From IMG/VR virus record IMGVR_UViG_3300022602_000024, positions 797 through 64,796 of that record: DNA of 64,000 bases; one strand, written 5' to 3'. The notes beneath the pieces were generated by a model. The model was not told the DNA's origin and did not search any database. It was given only the letters and a program-made list of their open reading frames with translations. This document shows, piece by piece, positions 19,802 to 28,667 of the stretch (within the stretch, counting starts at the first letter, position 1; each line of letters begins with the position of its first letter). The stretch comes from a virus. The position numbers were made by a program, and so were the translations under genes.

Positions 19802-22408
19802 TTAGGCCACAGCCCGGAAATGATTTTCTGAGATATCTTTGTGATCTTCGAGTATATTAATCATTTCGTCAAATTTATCTAACAATGCTTGCATACCTGG
19901 CAACATACCGTTGACTAACGGAGTTACCAGTTCACGTTGCCCACCTTCTGCCACTGTTACATTAGATCCGCTAGAACTGGGATTTACAATTCCCCCGCTA
20001 GCAAGCTGAGCATGAACGTGGTCTCCAGTTGCAGTAACTTTTGTACCATCTTTTCGTAATATTTCTTGTCCTTTTTTCTCAAAATCAACTCTAGAGAATC
20101 CTATTGCTTTTAGTGCAGCAACCACTGTGTCAACATCACCTAGGGGATTAATGTCTATGGCTTTACCCCACCCGTGCACATCGTTTTTGTGTGCTGCAAA
20201 AATATCCGAATCATTAAGTGCATTTATCATCACGTGAGATAATACAGAATCAGAATTCATTTTATCAAGCATGCCTTGCAGTTGAGGGGTGATCCCACCA
20301 GTACCAGCTCTACCATTGGTCATCAATCTACCTACATTTGGTGGCACTAATTCAGACAATCCTCTTGTAAGCGATCTACCCGGGCCTTCGGTGCCATACA
20401 ATTCAGTGTCGCCACCGCCTTCACTGACAGAAGCTGGTGCAGCAGTTCCTGCTGAGCCACCAATACCCCCAGCAGTAGCAGGTTTGTGTATGCCAGTATG
20501 AGCCCCACCAATGGCTGCACCTCCGCCCGAGGATCCAAAAGCGTGAGCACCACTGACAGCAGCAGAGGCACGTCCATTGGCTTCACGTCTTTGTTTTTCT
20601 TCTGGTGAGACAAATCCAAGTTTGTCCCTGTAGTTGTACAAATCATCGTATATTTCTTTGATCATGTCAGAAAATTGGCTAAGACCTCCATCTAGTCCTT
20701 TCATGATCTCTATACGCTGACTTTGCCAATCCATCATTTGTTCTGCAAAGTGTGTAGGGTCACCAGCTCCGCTAGTTAATGCTTTGGCTGCGTCCCCAAA
20801 AACATCAGCCATTTTAGTACCAGCAAGACTTAGTTTTTCAGCATTTTGATAAATGCCTTGAACATCACCGTACTCGCCTGTTAACAGGTTTACTTGCCCA
20901 AATCCAGTTTTACCTACTTGATTCAACATAGGCTTTGACATTTGTTGTATAGTTGTTACTGTTGCTTTGCCTGTTCTTGCAGCTTCGTTTGAGATATTTC
21001 TTGAATTTTTTGCAGCCTCTTCAACCATTTGTCTGATAGCTGGTGCTTGTGCAGAAGCCATTAAGAATCCCTGTTGTGTAATAAATCCGTAAACACGTTG
21101 TTGCATATAAGCAGTTTGTGTTTCTTGATTATCGCCAAGAGTTTTTAGATTCTGTTGAAATCCTTCTACTAATTTTTTAAATCTGTCGGCTATTTCTTCT
21201 TGTGTTCCACCGCCGGCTACTGCTTCTTCTCGCAGTTTTGATAAAACTTGAGTTTGCATTGTAGCGGCTTCAGCACGAGCCTGCGCTTTTTTAGCATCTT
21301 CACTAGTGAATGCACTTATGGCTTTTATGTTAACTAACCAATCACGTGTTTCTTTGGCAATGTCTTGAGCATTTTTTCTTTGTAAATCGCCAGCCATACC
21401 CAGTACACCCATATAGTGTATAGTACCGTCAGCGATATCTTCAAATGTTAGACCCAAATTCAGCAGTTGCTCAGTGAAACCATTGGTGCCCATTGCATTA
21501 CTAACCATACTGAACTGTTTAGCACCTTGTGTAACCGAACCTCCAAACTTTATGAGACTTTCAGTGTTATTTTTTATTGCATTAGCAAATTGTGTTTGAT
21601 CTAAATAAGCATCTTCAGCAAGTTGACGCAATTCTAATAACCCACCAGCAAATGTAGCACCAGCAGATGATACTGTTTGCATGGCTTTGACTGCACCATC
21701 CATTTCTTTAGATAGTGTTTGTATTTTAAACTTTTTAAGGTCTTCGTATTTTTCAAACAAGAAGCCACCAGCAGCCGTAGCTGCGGCCCCAAGTGCCCAT
21801 AACGGGGCTGCTGCGCCCCCAGTGGCCGCAGACAAAACTCCTAATCCTGTCATTGCACTAGAAGCTGCGCCAGTCATGCCTTTGACTACTTCAACATTCC
21901 TGTCAATTTGTAGTGTTTGCAATTCTCCTGCAGCCTGAAAAGCACTGGCATTGCTTTGATAACTGCTTATTAAAGATTTATAAACATTTATACCGTAGTT
22001 GGCAGTTGCAACTGCAATGGTTTCTGCACTGTCGACCACTGCTTTGACCAGATGTGCCGAAGCTGATTGTTCTTTGAGCTTGTTTATTTCAGACTGTTTA
22101 GCGGCTCGTTCGTTAGCGTCAGTTAATTCATCAACTTGTTCTTGTAAATAATGCAGATCTCCAGCAACATCTGTGTAGCTTTTTCGTCCCGATTTTAATG
22201 CTTTATCAAGTTGATTTAAAGAATAATTGGCTTGTCGTAATATTGTGTCTTGATCCCTGGTAGATCCAGCCAATTTCTTCGATTTATCAATTATGCCCTC
22301 AAGTGCTTCAGCTTCTTTTTTACCAAGAGAATTTAATAGAAGTTGATTTTTTCTCTTCCATTCAAACAGTTCTTTTTCTAATTCTAACGCTTCATTATTT
22401 TCAGGCAT
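19802..22408 (-). CDS. Probable tape-measure protein with C-terminal M15-like peptidase motif
   Basis: A long, mostly helical chain has an N-terminal coiled coil, an Ala/Gly-rich hydrophobic centre (GLGVLSAATGGAAAPLWALG) and a late segment LASGGIV...VAEGGQRELVTPLVNG. That last pattern is typical of tape-measure C-termini. Between them lies a motif set of Zn D,D-/L,D-peptidases of the M15 type: H745-x6-D752 (HGWGKAIDI) and D796-x-x-H799 (GDHVHAQL). I chose the ATG at 22408 (MPENNEALELEKELF), with a GGAAAA ribosome site, over one at 22438; the upstream start would lie inside promoter-like sequence. The neighbouring divergent gp26/chaperone-like pair supports the tape-measure call. T4 gp29 is shorter (about 590 residues). 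Confidence 0.72.
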   Translation of the reverse strand: MPENNEALELEKELFEWKRKNQLLLNSLGKKEAEALEGIIDKSKKLAGSTRDQDTILRQANYSLNQLDKALKSGRKSYTDVAGDLHYLQEQVDELTDANERAAKQSEINKLKEQSASAHLVKAVVDSAETIAVATANYGINVYKSLISSYQSNASAFQAAGELQTLQIDRNVEVVKGMTGAASSAMTGLGVLSAATGGAAAPLWALGAAATAAGGFLFEKYEDLKKFKIQTLSKEMDGAVKAMQTVSSAGATFAGGLLELRQLAEDAYLDQTQFANAIKNNTESLIKFGGSVTQGAKQFSMVSNAMGTNGFTEQLLNLGLTFEDIADGTIHYMGVLGMAGDLQRKNAQDIAKETRDWLVNIKAISAFTSEDAKKAQARAEAATMQTQVLSKLREEAVAGGGTQEEIADRFKKLVEGFQQNLKTLGDNQETQTAYMQQRVYGFITQQGFLMASAQAPAIRQMVEEAAKNSRNISNEAARTGKATVTTIQQMSKPMLNQVGKTGFGQVNLLTGEYGDVQGIYQNAEKLSLAGTKMADVFGDAAKALTSGAGDPTHFAEQMMDWQSQRIEIMKGLDGGLSQFSDMIKEIYDDLYNYRDKLGFVSPEEKQRREANGRASAAVSGAHAFGSSGGGAAIGGAHTGIHKPATAGGIGGSAGTAAPASVSEGGGDTELYGTEGPGRSLTRGLSELVPPNVGRLMTNGRAGTGGITPQLQGMLDKMNSDSVLSHVMINALNDSDIFAAHKNDVHGWGKAIDINPLGDVDTVVAALKAIGFSRVDFEKKGQEILRKDGTKVTATGDHVHAQLASGGIVNPSSSGSNVTVAEGGQRELVTPLVNGMLPGMQALLDKFDEMINILEDHKDISENHFRAVA

Positions 22409-22424
22409 GATTTTTCCAGGTAAA

Positions 22425-22432
22425 TATGAATA
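22425..22432 (+). promoter_or_regulatory. Late-promoter-like box TATGAATA
   Basis: Seven of eight matches to TATAAATA on the plus strand, 27 bp before the chosen gp26 start. It covers the alternative upstream ATG at 22426, which argues against that start. Confidence 0.42.
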
Positions 22433-22439
22433 TATCATT

Positions 22440-22458: not shown

Positions 22459-23298
22459 ATGGAAAATATCTCTGCTAATCCTTTAGCTAAACATTTTAGA
22501 CAACCTGCAATTTACATGAAATTGCCTAGTGGTGGTCGTTTTTGGAAAGAAGGCAGTTTAAATCTTCCCGCAACCGGCGATATACCTGTTTACCCAATGA
22601 CTGCACGTGATGAAATTACTATCCGTACACCCGATGCATTGATGAACGGTCAAGGTGTAGTTGATGTTATACAAAGTTGTTGCCCAAACATAATAGATGC
22701 GTGGAAAATGCCCAGTATTGACGTTGATGCAGTATTGCTAAACATACGTATTGCCAGTTACGGGGGCAATATGGATTTTGATACCAAATGTCCAGCTTGC
22801 CAAAATGAATCAAGTTTTAGTTTAGACATGGGCAAGATAGTACAACAAATTTCTATGCCAAACTACGATGATCCTTTGGTATTTGACGGATTTAAAATAA
22901 AACTTAAACCACAACCGTATTTTGAAGTAAACCGTGTAAATCAAATCAGTTTCACTGAGCAACAGATACTGCGTTCAGTTAACGATAACAATATACCCGA
23001 CGAAGAAAAGAAAACAATAACTGAAAAATATCTAAACAAGTTGATTGATTTAAACATCGAAGTTAGTTTAAACAGTACCAGTTCTATTACATTAGATGAC
23101 GGTACAGTAGTTACTAATATAATGCATATTAAAGAATTCTATGCCAATGCAGAATACAGAATATTAAAAGACATAGAAAAACGTCTCAAAGAGATCAATG
23201 ATCAAGTGGCACTTGATCCAGTTGATGTTGTGTGCTCTGCTTGCGCTAACGAATATAAAATTCCGCTAACCTTTGACTACGCAAATTTTTTCGGTTAA
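22459..23298 (+). CDS. gp26: Baseplate hub / tail-assembly protein gp26
   Basis: From the ATG at 22459 the product starts MENISANPLAKHFRQPAIYM and contains LPSGGRFW, PMTARDEI and the strongly conserved TPDALMNGQGVVDVIQSCCP. These place it in the T4 gp26 'baseplate protein' family. Two CxxC pairs (CPACQ near residue 110 and CSACA near residue 264) could bind zinc. The upstream in-frame ATG at 22426 is possible, but the inner start matches the family N-terminus and has a GGGA site 8 bp away. The gene ends in a T-TTT-TTC slippery heptamer three codons before the stop, and the next ORF continues in the -1 frame. This suggests a chaperone-type frameshift product as in other tailed phages. Confidence 0.88.
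   Translation: MENISANPLAKHFRQPAIYMKLPSGGRFWKEGSLNLPATGDIPVYPMTARDEITIRTPDALMNGQGVVDVIQSCCPNIIDAWKMPSIDVDAVLLNIRIASYGGNMDFDTKCPACQNESSFSLDMGKIVQQISMPNYDDPLVFDGFKIKLKPQPYFEVNRVNQISFTEQQILRSVNDNNIPDEEKKTITEKYLNKLIDLNIEVSLNSTSSITLDDGTVVTNIMHIKEFYANAEYRILKDIEKRLKEINDQVALDPVDVVCSACANEYKIPLTFDYANFFG
23286..23292 (+). promoter_or_regulatory. Candidate -1 programmed frameshift site (T TTT TTC)
   Basis: In the gp26 frame the codons are AAT TTT TTC GGT TAA. The heptamer T-TTT-TTC fits X-XXY-YYZ exactly, and the overlapping A-AAT-TTT also fits. Slipping back one base continues CGG TTA AGG CTT TTG TCT without a stop into the 23304-23522 ORF, giving a fusion of about 354 residues. No clear downstream pseudoknot is visible; an AAGG follows within 5 bases. 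Confidence 0.6.
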
Positions 23299-23303
23299 GG
23301 CTT

Positions 23304-23522
23304 TTGTCTCTATCCAATGAAGAGATTGTAGCACAAATTGAATCAATGGAAAATGAGACAAAAGCCATTAAACAAGAAGCACTAAAAATGTGTTGGTATA
23401 TGCGAGGTGGTCTTAGTTATACCGAATCTATGGATTTAAGTTTTACAGAACGTGAAATTATTGGTAAAATAATTAAAGAACATATAGAAACAACTAAAGA
23501 GTCAGGATTGCCATTCTTTTAA
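23304..23522 (+). CDS. Small gp51-position ORF, probably the -1 frameshift extension of gp26
   Basis: The 72-residue frame ends MDLSFTEREIIGKIIKEHIE followed by TTKESGLPFF, a pattern I associate with the small ORF after gp26 in aquatic T4-like phages. An independent start would be TTG at 23304 with AAGG only 3 bp upstream; no ATG is suitably placed. The frame is open upstream through the gp26 end, so expression as a gp26 extension by -1 frameshift at 23286-23292 is the simpler reading. The product is acidic and helical, like the T domain of G/GT tail-assembly chaperones. Independent translation by reinitiation remains possible. Confidence 0.7.
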   Translation: MSLSNEEIVAQIESMENETKAIKQEALKMCWYMRGGLSYTESMDLSFTEREIIGKIIKEHIETTKESGLPFF

Positions 23523-23540: not shown

Positions 23541-23946
23541 GTTGTTTCGCTTATCAGCTCACAACACTATTCTTATTCGCTTAAGCGGATTAAGTTTCAT
23601 CCAGATTCCTCAGTCACACTTTGCCCGCACAGGGCAAAGATCACTTCATCCGAGTTCGGAACAGTCATTAGCGTTACTGCATTACAGAGGCGGTTGTCCG
23701 GTACCTCGAGCAGTGTCTTTATCACAACGGCAACTAATATAATATACGCTAACATACTATATTAACCTGCACTATCGCTAGTGCGTCTTTTTAGCCTTAA
23801 ATTCTTTTCAAACAATCAAACTAGAGCATTTAACCAGTCGTCATCCTTAACGGGTAGTGATTGAGTACTCTCAACGGCGAGAGATTTACGTCCCTGTGAC
23901 CCTGGGTCCAGTTTTCATGTACGCACGAACTTGGCCTGCGTGAGCC
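23541..23946. other. Non-coding, hairpin-rich gap between converging genes
   Basis: About 400 bp without a credible gene. Visible elements: palindrome CGCTTAAGCG (23578-23587), an 8-bp hairpin ctttgccc/gggcaaag (23619-23639), palindrome TCCGAGTTCGGA (about 23649-23660), inverted TAATATA/TATATTA (about 23736-23765), a terminator at 23769-23792, and hairpin ctctc/gagag (about 23868-23884). The region could be structured 3' untranslated RNA or a small RNA. No tRNA cloverleaf or group I core was recognised. Confidence 0.5.
23769..23792 (+). terminator. Rho-independent terminator, plus strand
   Basis: Stem gcacta/tagtgc with a TCGC tetraloop is followed by GTCTTTTT. It would end the gp26 transcript after a structured 3' leader-out of about 270 nt. 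Confidence 0.72.
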
Positions 23947-24400: not shown

Positions 24401-25462
24401 TTAATATAATTGTAATTTTTTTAATAGATTTTCGTTCTCATACAACATTCCGAGATTATATCTGTTTTGTTGATCGTTAAAAGGACTACACCATGCACCA
24501 GACGTAGATCTTCCAAAATTGGTATAATCGTTGCCCAACCCAAAGTGTACTACTTTGGTTTGCTTCAATCCCAAACGATTACACCAGTATGTTTGCTTAT
24601 CCAAGTACTTTGTAACATTGTAATCTACAGGAAATTGATTGATAATATCTAATGCTAATCCTGCACTCAACCTGTTGCAAATATTTTCATCGTTGCTCAT
24701 CTGCATGGGGTCTTGCGGTTTTTCCTTACACATGCGCACCGCTATCTTAGCACATTGTACAGGAAAAGTTTTGCTAAAGCTAAAAGTAATTTGCCTAATA
24801 CAATCTGCACTTAGATCAATATCAACCGCACCGTTGCTATTGGGTAGATAGATAAAATCTAACAACAGATCTATACCCTGTTGATTGCATTGAGCTATTA
24901 ACCAATCTAAATCTTTGTGTTTGTCGCCAGTTAATGCAAAAGGATAGCTACAGATACAAACATCATTGGCACGTAAATCATCATCTTCGATGTACGCCCA
25001 CTCTGCACCAATTTTGCTCCAGATATCCATATGCCACCAGTAGTCTCCGCGAAATACTCTAAATCTTTTGTTTTTGTTAAACAAATAAAAGTTTATAAAA
25101 CTTTCTTGTGTTCCTGCACTAAAGCCTACATACTTAAACTGATCAAAATTTTGTAAATTGTATCTGGTGCCTGCGGCAATCCAACTTGGAAATTTTTCTT
25201 CAAATTGCTTTACAATCCAAGGATTCAGCAAATGTTGCGCTAAATTCAAACTTTGAGTATAGTCAATAACTTCACTGTCTTTTATGCTGTTGCCACTGCT
25301 AAAAATACTGCGATATCTAGATCTTACAGGCTCAAATTTATTATTATCAGGAAATGCCCATATATATTCGCCGGGTACATCTAGTGTGCGGTCTCCACTG
25401 GCTTTTGCAAGAACCCAGGCCAAGGTTCTAACTTGATTTATATCTGTGCTAAAATTCTGCAT
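24401..25462 (-). CDS. PLP-dependent aminotransferase-like protein, paralogue 2
   Basis: From the ATG at 25462 (MQNFSTDINQVRTLAWVLAK) the 353-residue product has the hallmarks of fold-type I PLP enzymes. These are a phosphate-site segment FSAGTQESF, a cofactor Asp with Tyr (D202 and Y205 in LLLDFIYLP) and the Schiff-base lysine K231 in FSFSKTFPV, followed by KIAVRM as in HisC-type enzymes. The open frame extends to 25540, but that part overlaps the end of the 156-residue gene, so the inner start is preferred. It is about 25-30% similar by eye to the gene at 25886-26914. Substrate unknown. Sitting downstream of gp46 in an overlapping cassette is unusual for a phage. Confidence 0.72.
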   Translation of the reverse strand: MQNFSTDINQVRTLAWVLAKASGDRTLDVPGEYIWAFPDNNKFEPVRSRYRSIFSSGNSIKDSEVIDYTQSLNLAQHLLNPWIVKQFEEKFPSWIAAGTRYNLQNFDQFKYVGFSAGTQESFINFYLFNKNKRFRVFRGDYWWHMDIWSKIGAEWAYIEDDDLRANDVCICSYPFALTGDKHKDLDWLIAQCNQQGIDLLLDFIYLPNSNGAVDIDLSADCIRQITFSFSKTFPVQCAKIAVRMCKEKPQDPMQMSNDENICNRLSAGLALDIINQFPVDYNVTKYLDKQTYWCNRLGLKQTKVVHFGLGNDYTNFGRSTSGAWCSPFNDQQNRYNLGMLYENENLLKKLQLY

Positions 25463-25908
25463 GCTTGTTGATAGTAGTTGTAGTCTTCTTCCCAGTCTGG
25501 GTCGTTGTTGTTTTTTTCGTGACGTGTTTTCAAGATCCAATATAGTACAGGATTGTACAAGTCAATTATAAATTTTCCATTGGGACCAAAAAACAAACAA
25601 CTTGGGTATACATTGCCGTTTTCAGCAAAAAACTTGCTCTCCCATATTAACTCTTCTAAATTGTAGTCGTCTATGACAATAGATTCCAATTCAAAGCTGC
25701 GATCTTTGACAATTTTTCCATCGGCTACGACGGTATCACTGGGCAATTTGTCCCAGTGCTCGATAACTAATGAACAAGGACCTTCATCTAACTCTATGTC
25801 ATAATTATATTCGTTGTTGACCAAACCAGAATATAATTCTTGATTGGCCACAGTTATTTTACACTTTGGAGAGTCAACAATGTTTTTAAATATTATCTGC
25901 AGTTTCAT
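25438..25908 (-). CDS. Unknown small protein between the two PLP-enzyme genes
   Basis: The 156-residue product starts MKLQIIFKNIVDSPKCKITV, looks beta-rich for the first 80 residues, and then has FELESIVIDDYNLEELI and CLFFGPNGKFIIDLYNP, ending in a helical tail. I recognise the general pattern (DGKI-x-D-x-x-[FIL]-E-[LI]-x-x-I-x-IDD) from uncharacterised proteins of aquatic phages, sometimes guessed to be carbohydrate-binding-like. It overlaps the upstream aminotransferase gene by 23 bp and the downstream one by 25 bp, so the three are almost certainly co-translated and likely function together. No enzyme motif is seen. Confidence 0.7.
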   Translation of the reverse strand: MKLQIIFKNIVDSPKCKITVANQELYSGLVNNEYNYDIELDEGPCSLVIEHWDKLPSDTVVADGKIVKDRSFELESIVIDDYNLEELIWESKFFAENGNVYPSCLFFGPNGKFIIDLYNPVLYWILKTRHEKNNNDPDWEEDYNYYQQACRILAQI

Positions 25909-26914
25909 TTTTTATTTTCTCAAACAAATCCCAATGATCAAAAATGCTGACCAAGCTAATTCTATTATTAAAATCAGCAGGATCTAATTGTAATTTATAT
26001 ACATTCAATAAATTTTTCCTACTGTATAAATCCCAATCAGAATCGCCAATGGCAAACAATACAGAATCACTAGCAGTTAAGTTGAAGTATTCACATACTT
26101 GTTTTTGTTGTTGTATATAACGTTTATATATGTAGCTACAAGGAAATTGTTCTATTATCTTTGTTCCTATATATGCTGACAAATTGTTGTTGTAATTAAT
26201 GCTATCGTGTAGTTTTTGACCGTCAAATGTATCTTTTGTGTACCTTACACCTATGCGCAAGTTGGCTACAGGAAATGCTTTGCTTATACTAAATGCCACA
26301 GTATCAATACAGCCTGCAGATAAATCCAAAGTGATGCCGCTACTAATGGGATAGTAACAACAATCAATCAATACAGGTACATTCAATGACTCGCATTGTT
26401 GTATAATATTTAAAAACTCTGGGTGTGCTGATCCGGTATCACAAAAAGGCATGCTAATCACAACTGCATCATTTGATGCAATAGGATCGCTATCGGTGAT
26501 AAAACTCCAACTGGCACGGTTGCTGATCCATGTTTTTAAATGATAAAAGTATTCTCCGGAATAGCATCTAAACCGTCTTGTACAATGTCTAAAATAAAAA
26601 CTATCAAATGATTGTGTGGTTCCAGCACTGTAATCTGCTGAGTATTTTTCTAAACCTATTACGGTATTAGAATCGTGCCCTAAAATCCATTGAGTTATTT
26701 TCTTTTTAAATTCGTGTAACGCAGACCAATTTTGCAACTCGCTATACATACTTTGATCAAATAACTGCTTGATGTATTCTACAACTTGTGTATCTTTAAC
26801 TGCACGACTACCTTGAAATATATGATTTGCAGAAAATCTAGCATCAAAAAAGTTGCTGTGATTCTTTGTTGAAATCAAATAAGCCAACTGGCGAATGTTA
26901 TGTGATTTCGACAT
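25886..26914 (-). CDS. PLP-dependent aminotransferase-like protein, paralogue 1
   Basis: Starting at the ATG at 26914 (MSKSHNIRQLAYLISTKNHS) it has 342 residues. Fold-type I features: phosphate-site segment YSAGTTQSFDSFY, cofactor Asp and Tyr D184/Y187 in VLIDCCYYP, and Schiff-base lysine K212 in AFSISKAFPV, followed by LRIGVRY. The latter closely resembles the SK..GLAGLRIGY motif of histidinol-phosphate and aspartate aminotransferases. All key residues are kept, so it is probably active. The frame is open to 26971, but the inner start overlaps the gp46 stop by only 17 bp. Paralogue of the 24401-25462 product. The reaction cannot be named. Confidence 0.74.
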   Translation of the reverse strand: MSKSHNIRQLAYLISTKNHSNFFDARFSANHIFQGSRAVKDTQVVEYIKQLFDQSMYSELQNWSALHEFKKKITQWILGHDSNTVIGLEKYSADYSAGTTQSFDSFYFRHCTRRFRCYSGEYFYHLKTWISNRASWSFITDSDPIASNDAVVISMPFCDTGSAHPEFLNIIQQCESLNVPVLIDCCYYPISSGITLDLSAGCIDTVAFSISKAFPVANLRIGVRYTKDTFDGQKLHDSINYNNNLSAYIGTKIIEQFPCSYIYKRYIQQQKQVCEYFNLTASDSVLFAIGDSDWDLYSRKNLLNVYKLQLDPADFNNRISLVSIFDHWDLFEKIKNETADNI

Positions 26915-28667
26915 CTGTATTATAACTTGTGTAACCGTTTTCTTTAACAACGTGCAAAGTATTGTTAACACGTCCTGCTAACTCGTCTTTGTGCGATACT
27001 AGCCAAATTGATTTGTTACTATCTCGGCTCATTTTCTTAAGAATACTCAATGAATTCTCAACTCCTGAGCTATCCATACCTGAATCTACCAACTCATCAA
27101 TGAACAACAAGTTGATGGGTTGATATAAACTTTCCCATACATCACGGAATGCCCATGACAAACTCAAGATAAGTCTGTTACGCTCGCCCCTACTCAAGTT
27201 GTCAAAGTCTAAGTCTCTACCCAGTTCAGTAATGGCTACAGTTAAGTCGTTGTTGAATTTTACAGTATGCGGCAAGCCTATACGATCTAAATATTGCCCT
27301 AATCTAGCATTAAGATAACTTAAATTTTGATCAATAATACGTTTACGTATAAATGAATCTTTGTTGGTCAACAGTTTTAACAAAAACTCTTGATGATTTT
27401 TGATGTTGTCTAGTTCATTCATAACATCGTAACTGATTTCTTCTACTGCTTGCTCTTCCATGTCACGAATCTGATCGGCGTAAAGATCTGTTTCTTCTTG
27501 TTTGGCAGTTAACTGTGCAAGAATACTGCCCATGCTACTGCGATGCTCAAAAGCATCTGCTTCACTGTTGTAATAAACTTCAGGTTGTACACCTAGTTCT
27601 CCCAAGTCTGCCAGTGCTTGAGTATGTTCCATCCATTGAGTATTAGTGGCCAAGGCCTGTAGTGCAGCTTCTTGTAGTGCAGCACGCTTAGATTCCAACA
27701 TTTTTTCGTGACTGTCATCATGTAGGTCCTGCCCGCAAGCATGACACTTGTGATCTTCTAATGCAGCAATGTCAGCTCGCAGTTGATCAATAACTTTTTC
27801 TTCACGTTTTTCATCTAGTTCGCACCGTCGAATCCAGTTAGTCAGTTCAGTAATGGCTTTACGTTTTGTATTGTGGGCATTTAAGGCCTGGTGTGCACTC
27901 AATTCGGCTTCGATGTCTAGTTTGCTTAGTTCATCATATGCGGCCTGTAACGCATCTATATCGTCGGCGTGTTTTTTGAGCCATATCGACTGTGTGCGTT
28001 TTACCTTATCAATTTGTTCTTGAATACGCTTATTAGCATCCGTGACTGCTTTGATTCGAAATTCCTCTTGGCTAATGGCATCCTTAGTTACTTTGTTTAA
28101 TTCTTTAAGACGATCTGCTTTTTCGCTTAATAATGTAATGCCCAACAGTTGCTCAATGATAGTGCGTTGATCATTGGCTTTGAGTGCAAGGAATGGTTCA
28201 GTATAAGTGTTTAATGCAACAATATGCTTAAACATATCATGACTCATGCCTAACATTCTTTCAATTTCTGCTTGCGTTTCTCTACTGTCACCTTGAGCAT
28301 CATCGGTAATTTCTCGTTCAACATTACCGACAAAGAATTTCATTACTCCAGGTTTGCGGCCACGCTCAATTCTGTAATCAATACCGTCTTTTTCAAAATC
28401 AATTGTGACCAACATACCTTTGGTATTGGTTTTGTTGATTAGATTATCTTTTTTAATGTTAGTAAGTGCATTGCCGTATAGTGCATAGCTCAATGCATTA
28501 ATGATAGTGGTCTTACCAGTGCCATTACGTGCACCCGAATCATCGCCGCCTAAGTCTAAGTTTTCACCTAGCACCAAAGTTAAATCATTACGATCAAAGT
28601 TAACGGCTTGTGTAGTATTACCTACACTCATAAAGTTTTTAACAGTAAGGTCTTTTATTTTAAACAT
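26898..28667 (-). CDS. gp46: Recombination endonuclease subunit gp46 (Rad50/SbcC-like)
   Basis: This ATPase subunit of the Mre11-Rad50-type nuclease processes DNA ends for recombination-dependent replication. Visible features: Walker A GARNGTGKTT (K52), a long coiled coil with a zinc-hook pair C308/C311 in KCHACGQ, the ABC signature LSRGERNRLILSLSWAF, and Walker B LLFIDE followed by the D-loop VDSGMD. A His-switch appears in WLVSHKDE. At 589 residues it is close to T4 gp46 (560). The start shares one base with the gp47 stop, so the two subunits are translationally coupled, as usual in T4-like phages. Confidence 0.96.
   Translation of the reverse strand: MFKIKDLTVKNFMSVGNTTQAVNFDRNDLTLVLGENLDLGGDDSGARNGTGKTTIINALSYALYGNALTNIKKDNLINKTNTKGMLVTIDFEKDGIDYRIERGRKPGVMKFFVGNVEREITDDAQGDSRETQAEIERMLGMSHDMFKHIVALNTYTEPFLALKANDQRTIIEQLLGITLLSEKADRLKELNKVTKDAISQEEFRIKAVTDANKRIQEQIDKVKRTQSIWLKKHADDIDALQAAYDELSKLDIEAELSAHQALNAHNTKRKAITELTNWIRRCELDEKREEKVIDQLRADIAALEDHKCHACGQDLHDDSHEKMLESKRAALQEAALQALATNTQWMEHTQALADLGELGVQPEVYYNSEADAFEHRSSMGSILAQLTAKQEETDLYADQIRDMEEQAVEEISYDVMNELDNIKNHQEFLLKLLTNKDSFIRKRIIDQNLSYLNARLGQYLDRIGLPHTVKFNNDLTVAITELGRDLDFDNLSRGERNRLILSLSWAFRDVWESLYQPINLLFIDELVDSGMDSSGVENSLSILKKMSRDSNKSIWLVSHKDELAGRVNNTLHVVKENGYTSYNTDVEIT

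Follow-up and report, generated by a model that had tools for sequence, protein, structure and literature searches.

The question raised by this locus is whether the gp26 homologue of a T4-like jumbo myovirus gives rise to one protein or to two, the second through an overlapping reading frame. The window, meaning the whole 64,000-nucleotide stretch that was analysed, comes from a 354,429-base virus record of such a phage and encodes a T4-type portal (PF07230, E 6e-101). Judged from its sequence, gene 26 very probably encodes a tail assembly chaperone and undergoes programmed -1 ribosomal frameshifting, by which a short and a long product would be made.

The gp26 homologue (22459-23298, plus strand) encodes 279 amino acids, the predicted short isoform, or TAC-N. 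It matched PF12322 with an E-value of 1.6e-16 and a score of 61.1 bits, above the curated cut-off of 24.5, and phrog_150, a family labelled 'baseplate hub', with an E-value of 1.2e-21. Its 3' end reads GCA AAT TTT TTC GGT TAA. The preliminary description had reported an in-phase T-TTT-TTC in this stretch, followed by an ORF in the -1 frame that is open across the join and has no ATG near it, and both points were confirmed. The slippery heptamer T TTT TTC (23286-23292, plus strand) is in phase with gp26, with TTT in the P-site and TTC in the A-site, and is followed by a 6-nt spacer (23293-23298) that includes the zero-frame stop TAA (23296-23298). The -1 frame ORF (23277-23522, plus strand) spans the join, being open from 23277 to 23519 with its stop at 23520-23522, and its first ATG is at 23346, far inside the frame. 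After a slip, translation would continue through a conserved C-terminal extension of 76 codons (23292-23519, plus strand; RLRLLSLSNEE...), which begins RLRLLSLSNEEIVAQIESMENE... and would bring the long product to 354 amino acids, compared to 279 for the short one. Shuffles predict 15.65 copies of TTTTTTC for the window, and the actual count of 17 is at the level of chance. The heptamer count by itself was thus rejected as evidence, and the case rests on the position, phase and conservation of the heptamer, the invariant phenylalanine codons and the downstream stem.

When relatives were aligned at the junction, as the preliminary description had proposed, conservation of the heptamer proved to be near-universal. 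An in-phase T TTT TTC was present at 177 of 179 homologous loci from jumbo phages, cyanophages and Aeromonas phage 65.2, counts in which the loci inside each clade are kin and do not represent independent events. One of the two exceptions had T TTT TTT, the sequence seen at the XacN1 site, and the other, Cygsa01, was without a heptamer. Jumbo phages sharing the in-phase heptamer and the open -1 frame infect Klebsiella, Escherichia, Salmonella, Pectobacterium, Xanthomonas, Pseudomonas, Agrobacterium, Sinorhizobium, Vibrio, and Salicola, and gp26 identity to these more distant jumbo relatives is only about 24-33%. The heptamer was also found in cyanophage S-RIM8, Aeromonas phage 65.2 and phage SRB7757. 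Different codons precede it (AAT, CAT, AGT, CGT, GAT, TAT, GCT, and TCT), always with T as the last base, and the distance from the heptamer to the zero-frame stop ranges from 3 to 33 nt across the 179 loci.

Codon usage within the heptamer was constrained as well. We examined conserved columns, defined as those with the same amino acid throughout a clade, with Met and Trp set aside. Among 62 distinct genes of the window clade, the TTT and TTC of the heptamer were two of 51 such columns and the sole ones without synonymous change, and the same held for the same two Phe codons among 55 conserved columns in 78 distinct cyanophage-type genes. Other conserved Phe positions mix their codons, for example 44 TTT and 17 TTC. 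The Arg of the FFR sequence, which is read only after a slip into the -1 frame, lies ahead of every possible start codon and is conserved, and conservation of the extension's protein sequence begins at the codon directly after the heptamer.

A perfect 12-bp inverted repeat starts 6 nt past the heptamer, forming a candidate stimulatory stem. Its 5' arm (GGCTTTTGTCTC, 23299-23310, plus strand) and 3' arm (GAGACAAAAGCC, 23355-23366, plus strand) are 100% complementary to each other, and the RNA fold of the 83 nt past the heptamer had a z-score of -6.0 relative to dinucleotide shuffles. Since coding sequence could itself create repeats, the fold was also compared with synonymous recodings, which gave a z-score of -6.5 in the window phage. 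By the same comparison the window clade had a mean z-score of -2.6, with its control stretches between -0.01 and -0.77; the cyanophage type averaged -1.7, against -0.41 to -0.87 in its controls, and the other jumbo phages -1.4. Correctly spaced stems of 7 bp or more were present in 36 of 51 window-clade loci, compared to 5-12 of 51 at control sites, and the cyanophage-type loci showed no excess of such stems over their own control sites. The stem is well supported as a real feature of the window phage and its close relatives and is not universal. It is weak or absent in some relatives, namely L019, L020 and RaK2 (L112), and may therefore be optional for the frameshift.

Other explanations for the overlapping frames are conceivable. 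By translational coupling, ribosomes could stop at the TAA ending at 23298 and restart at TTG 23304, or at other starts in relatives, so that the second ORF would yield a separate small protein. The TTG has AAGG 3 nt upstream, a nearby -1 frame ATG is present in 35 of 82 window-clade and 55 of 81 cyanophage-type loci, and an ATG overlaps the stop in 121Q, XbC2 and Cygsa01. However, no start codon is conserved, and none at all is found near the join in L007, L014, L018, L019, L020, and L112. The preliminary description had set out, as the opposing case, relatives with a good ATG for the second ORF and no conserved heptamer, and the relatives turned out to be the opposite. Coupling also leaves the invariant TTT TTC codons unexplained, and the conserved Arg after Phe-Phe argues against a separately started protein, as does the fact that protein conservation starts ahead of any start codon. 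We regard coupling as very improbable. Transcriptional slippage on the six-T run, rather than ribosomal slippage, could in principle join the frames, and conservation of the T run would be consistent with this. RNA polymerase slippage, though, would tolerate longer runs or other phases, whereas here the run keeps its phase and stays at exactly six T before a C, and a structure located at the ribosomal distance is under selection, making this mechanism even harder to credit. Finally, the split could be an assembly or sequencing error within a single fused gene, given that the window comes from an uncultured-type virus record and has a homopolymer at the join. This was rejected, and we see next to no chance of it: the same split occurs in the isolates RaK2, 121Q, CBB, Munch, Atu_ph07, PA5oct, S-RIM8, and Aeromonas phage 65.2, which come from many laboratories, and the stop distance differs among these genomes.

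With programmed frameshifting as the preferred reading, gene 26 most likely gives a 279-amino-acid short and a 354-amino-acid long tail assembly chaperone, in the manner of lambda G/GT. The majority of ribosomes would stop at the TAA at 23296-23298 and release the short form. A minority would pause on meeting the 12-bp stem that begins 6 nt beyond T TTT TTC; aided by the stem, both Phe-tRNAs could slip back one base on U UUU UUC (tandem -1 slippage), and these ribosomes would read 76 more codons to make the long form. Both the slippage and its rate are inferred. In lambda, the short form coats the tape measure protein and the extension recruits the tail tube (PMC5009743). By analogy, the gp26 products would cover the tape measure protein with their short part and bring in tail-tube subunits with the extension, and both forms would depart before the virion is completed. 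As in lambda gpG/gpGT, one gene is predicted to give mostly a short form and, through -1 frameshifting, a smaller amount of a long form that has a C-terminal extension, and a conserved slippery heptamer lies near the end of the short ORF. Unlike in lambda, the heptamer is T TTT TTC with an evident downstream stem, the putative tape measure gene is divergent instead of directly downstream, and no sequence relation between the two systems was shown.

The chaperone role assigned to the gp26 products on these grounds is a presumptive one, and frameshifting could be real while its product serves as a structural hub protein rather than a transient chaperone. Databases name the family 'baseplate hub', and gp26 was assigned to the hub in some studies of T4 (PMC3004832); however, the same source also lists T4 gp26 and gp51 as hub assembly chaperones, and gp51 is absent from the particle. 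A structural role is in our judgment unlikely. The structure model of gp26 matched T4-like hub proteins in BFVD and had no significant match to the PDB with Foldseek, and a sequence search of the PDB returned chance matches only. The model of the extension was a set of helices with no significant structural matches. The HK97 tail chaperone 2ob9 was considered as a structural relative of gp26 and was set aside, as an E-value of 1.4 and a TM-score of 0.16 are not evidence of a relationship.

T4 has two PF12322 proteins: gp26, which stops where the domain does, and gp51, which carries about 48 more residues. A profile of the predicted fusions aligned through the junction to the C-terminus both with cyanophage fusions (E 2.3e-35) and with T4-type gp51 (E 2.5e-7), and comparison of the cyanophage fusions to gp51 gave an E-value of 6e-16. 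The C-terminal extension of T4 gp51 thus aligns with the -1 frame product of the window phage, a member of the same family. T4, however, relies on two complete, divergent genes and lacks a slippery site, whereas a single gene with a slippery site serves in the window phage. The preliminary description had treated T4-like gp26/gp51 as the equivalent of G/GT. The end-to-end profile matches to gp51 support this equivalence, but gp51 is a second full gene bearing the extension and not the extension alone, and to that extent the claim had to be amended.

Gene copy number followed the same division. Two PF12322 genes were found in T4 and four T4-type genomes, and these two-copy genomes lack the heptamer, which was absent from gp26 at all T4-type loci examined. 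A single PF12322 gene was found in 14 of 15 other named records, with SCTP-2 falling below detection, and all but one of the single-copy genomes had the heptamer. Within the 354-kb record, which may be incomplete, gp26 was the only PF12322 gene, and a second one with an extension, as in the two-gene arrangement of T4, was not found. In a maximum-likelihood tree, T4-type gp26 and gp51 formed one well-supported clade (98/92) with all frameshift genes outside it; the root was placed at the midpoint, and the direction of change depends on that placement. The simplest reading, whose direction we infer, is that one duplication and fusion in the T4 lineage replaced an older frameshift. The tree and the PF12322 copy number thereby support the earlier suggestion that this genome keeps the ancestral frameshift. 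On balance, we favor a history in which the T TTT TTC -1 frameshift was the gp26 family's original route to a long chaperone and persisted in jumbo phages, cyanophages and Aeromonas phage 65.2, while the classical T4 lineage swapped it once for gene duplication and frame fusion; many database entries for 'gp51' would then be mis-started fragments of the extension. Pseudomonas phage Cygsa01 (L021:2072-2982) has one PF12322 gene and an extension frame with no heptamer and an ATG overlapping the gp26 stop, possibly a third solution in which two separate proteins are made.

The cyanophages (Kyanoviridae, for example S-RIM8) share the identical heptamer and the -1 extension with the window phage. 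They differ in that gp26 is shorter (about 236 amino acids), the next large gene is downstream on the same strand and the downstream structure is weaker. The annotated 'gp51' of S-RIM8 (L018:3232-3369) appears to be a late-started piece of the -1 extension. Small hypothetical ORFs after gp26 in L008, L010, L012, and L013 also appear to be late-started fragments of this kind. In most of the jumbo phage and cyanophage records examined, the extension is either left out or entered as a small gene of its own with the wrong start, a recurring error that can now be corrected.

The chaperone genes of T4-like phages were reportedly identified by Vladimirov et al. 2022, who may also have described poly-T frameshifts. 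PMC12846349 refers to that work as the source for poly-T slippery signals in the TAC-N genes of T4-like phages. Frameshifting is thus probably on record already for some T4-like phages, and the breadth across relatives and the evolutionary polarity described here are possibly new. The TAC-N/TAC-NC genes of Vandenendeviridae and Andersonviridae, described for phage Adele (PMC12846349), are likewise tail chaperone genes of myoviruses in which a -1 frameshift at a poly-T slippery motif is conserved. Their motif is GTTTTT and their lineage is different, and the likeness described here is one of arrangement. According to a standard review, long-tailed phages widely share a conserved G-T type frameshift, 'except T4' (PMC5009743). 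In the light of our data, T4 looks like a late exception within a frameshift-using family, which makes the origin of gp26 and gp51 directly testable.

The preliminary description had also placed a probable tape measure gene immediately divergent from gp26. A large minus-strand gene does lie there (19802-22438 or 19802-22408; 868-878 amino acids), and from its position and length it is plausibly the tape measure gene. Such a large gene adjoins the portal and gp26 genes in many jumbo relatives, and a long divergent ORF was present at 69 of 82 window-clade loci. Profile comparisons of its product with T4 gp29, the cyanophage gene after gp51 and the Aeromonas phage 65.2 gene gave no match; T4 gp29 and the presumed tape measure protein of 65.2 did not match each other either, so a missing match carries no weight here. 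The C-terminal part of the protein (HGWGKAIDI...GDHVHAQL) resembles an M15/VanY-type peptidase by eye, with no such Pfam match for the whole protein.

On the other side of gp26, a strong match (103.5 bits) to the Polynucleobacter-1 RNA family (RF01718) was found at 23810-23946 on the minus strand, between the frameshift gene and a gene for a SegE-like GIY-YIG endonuclease. It is present in a single copy in the 354-kb record. Further along, two minus-strand genes (24401-25540 and 25886-26971) encode apparently related proteins of about 360-380 amino acids that look like PLP-type aminotransferases by eye and have in common the motifs FSFSKTFPV / FSISKAFPV and DLSA.
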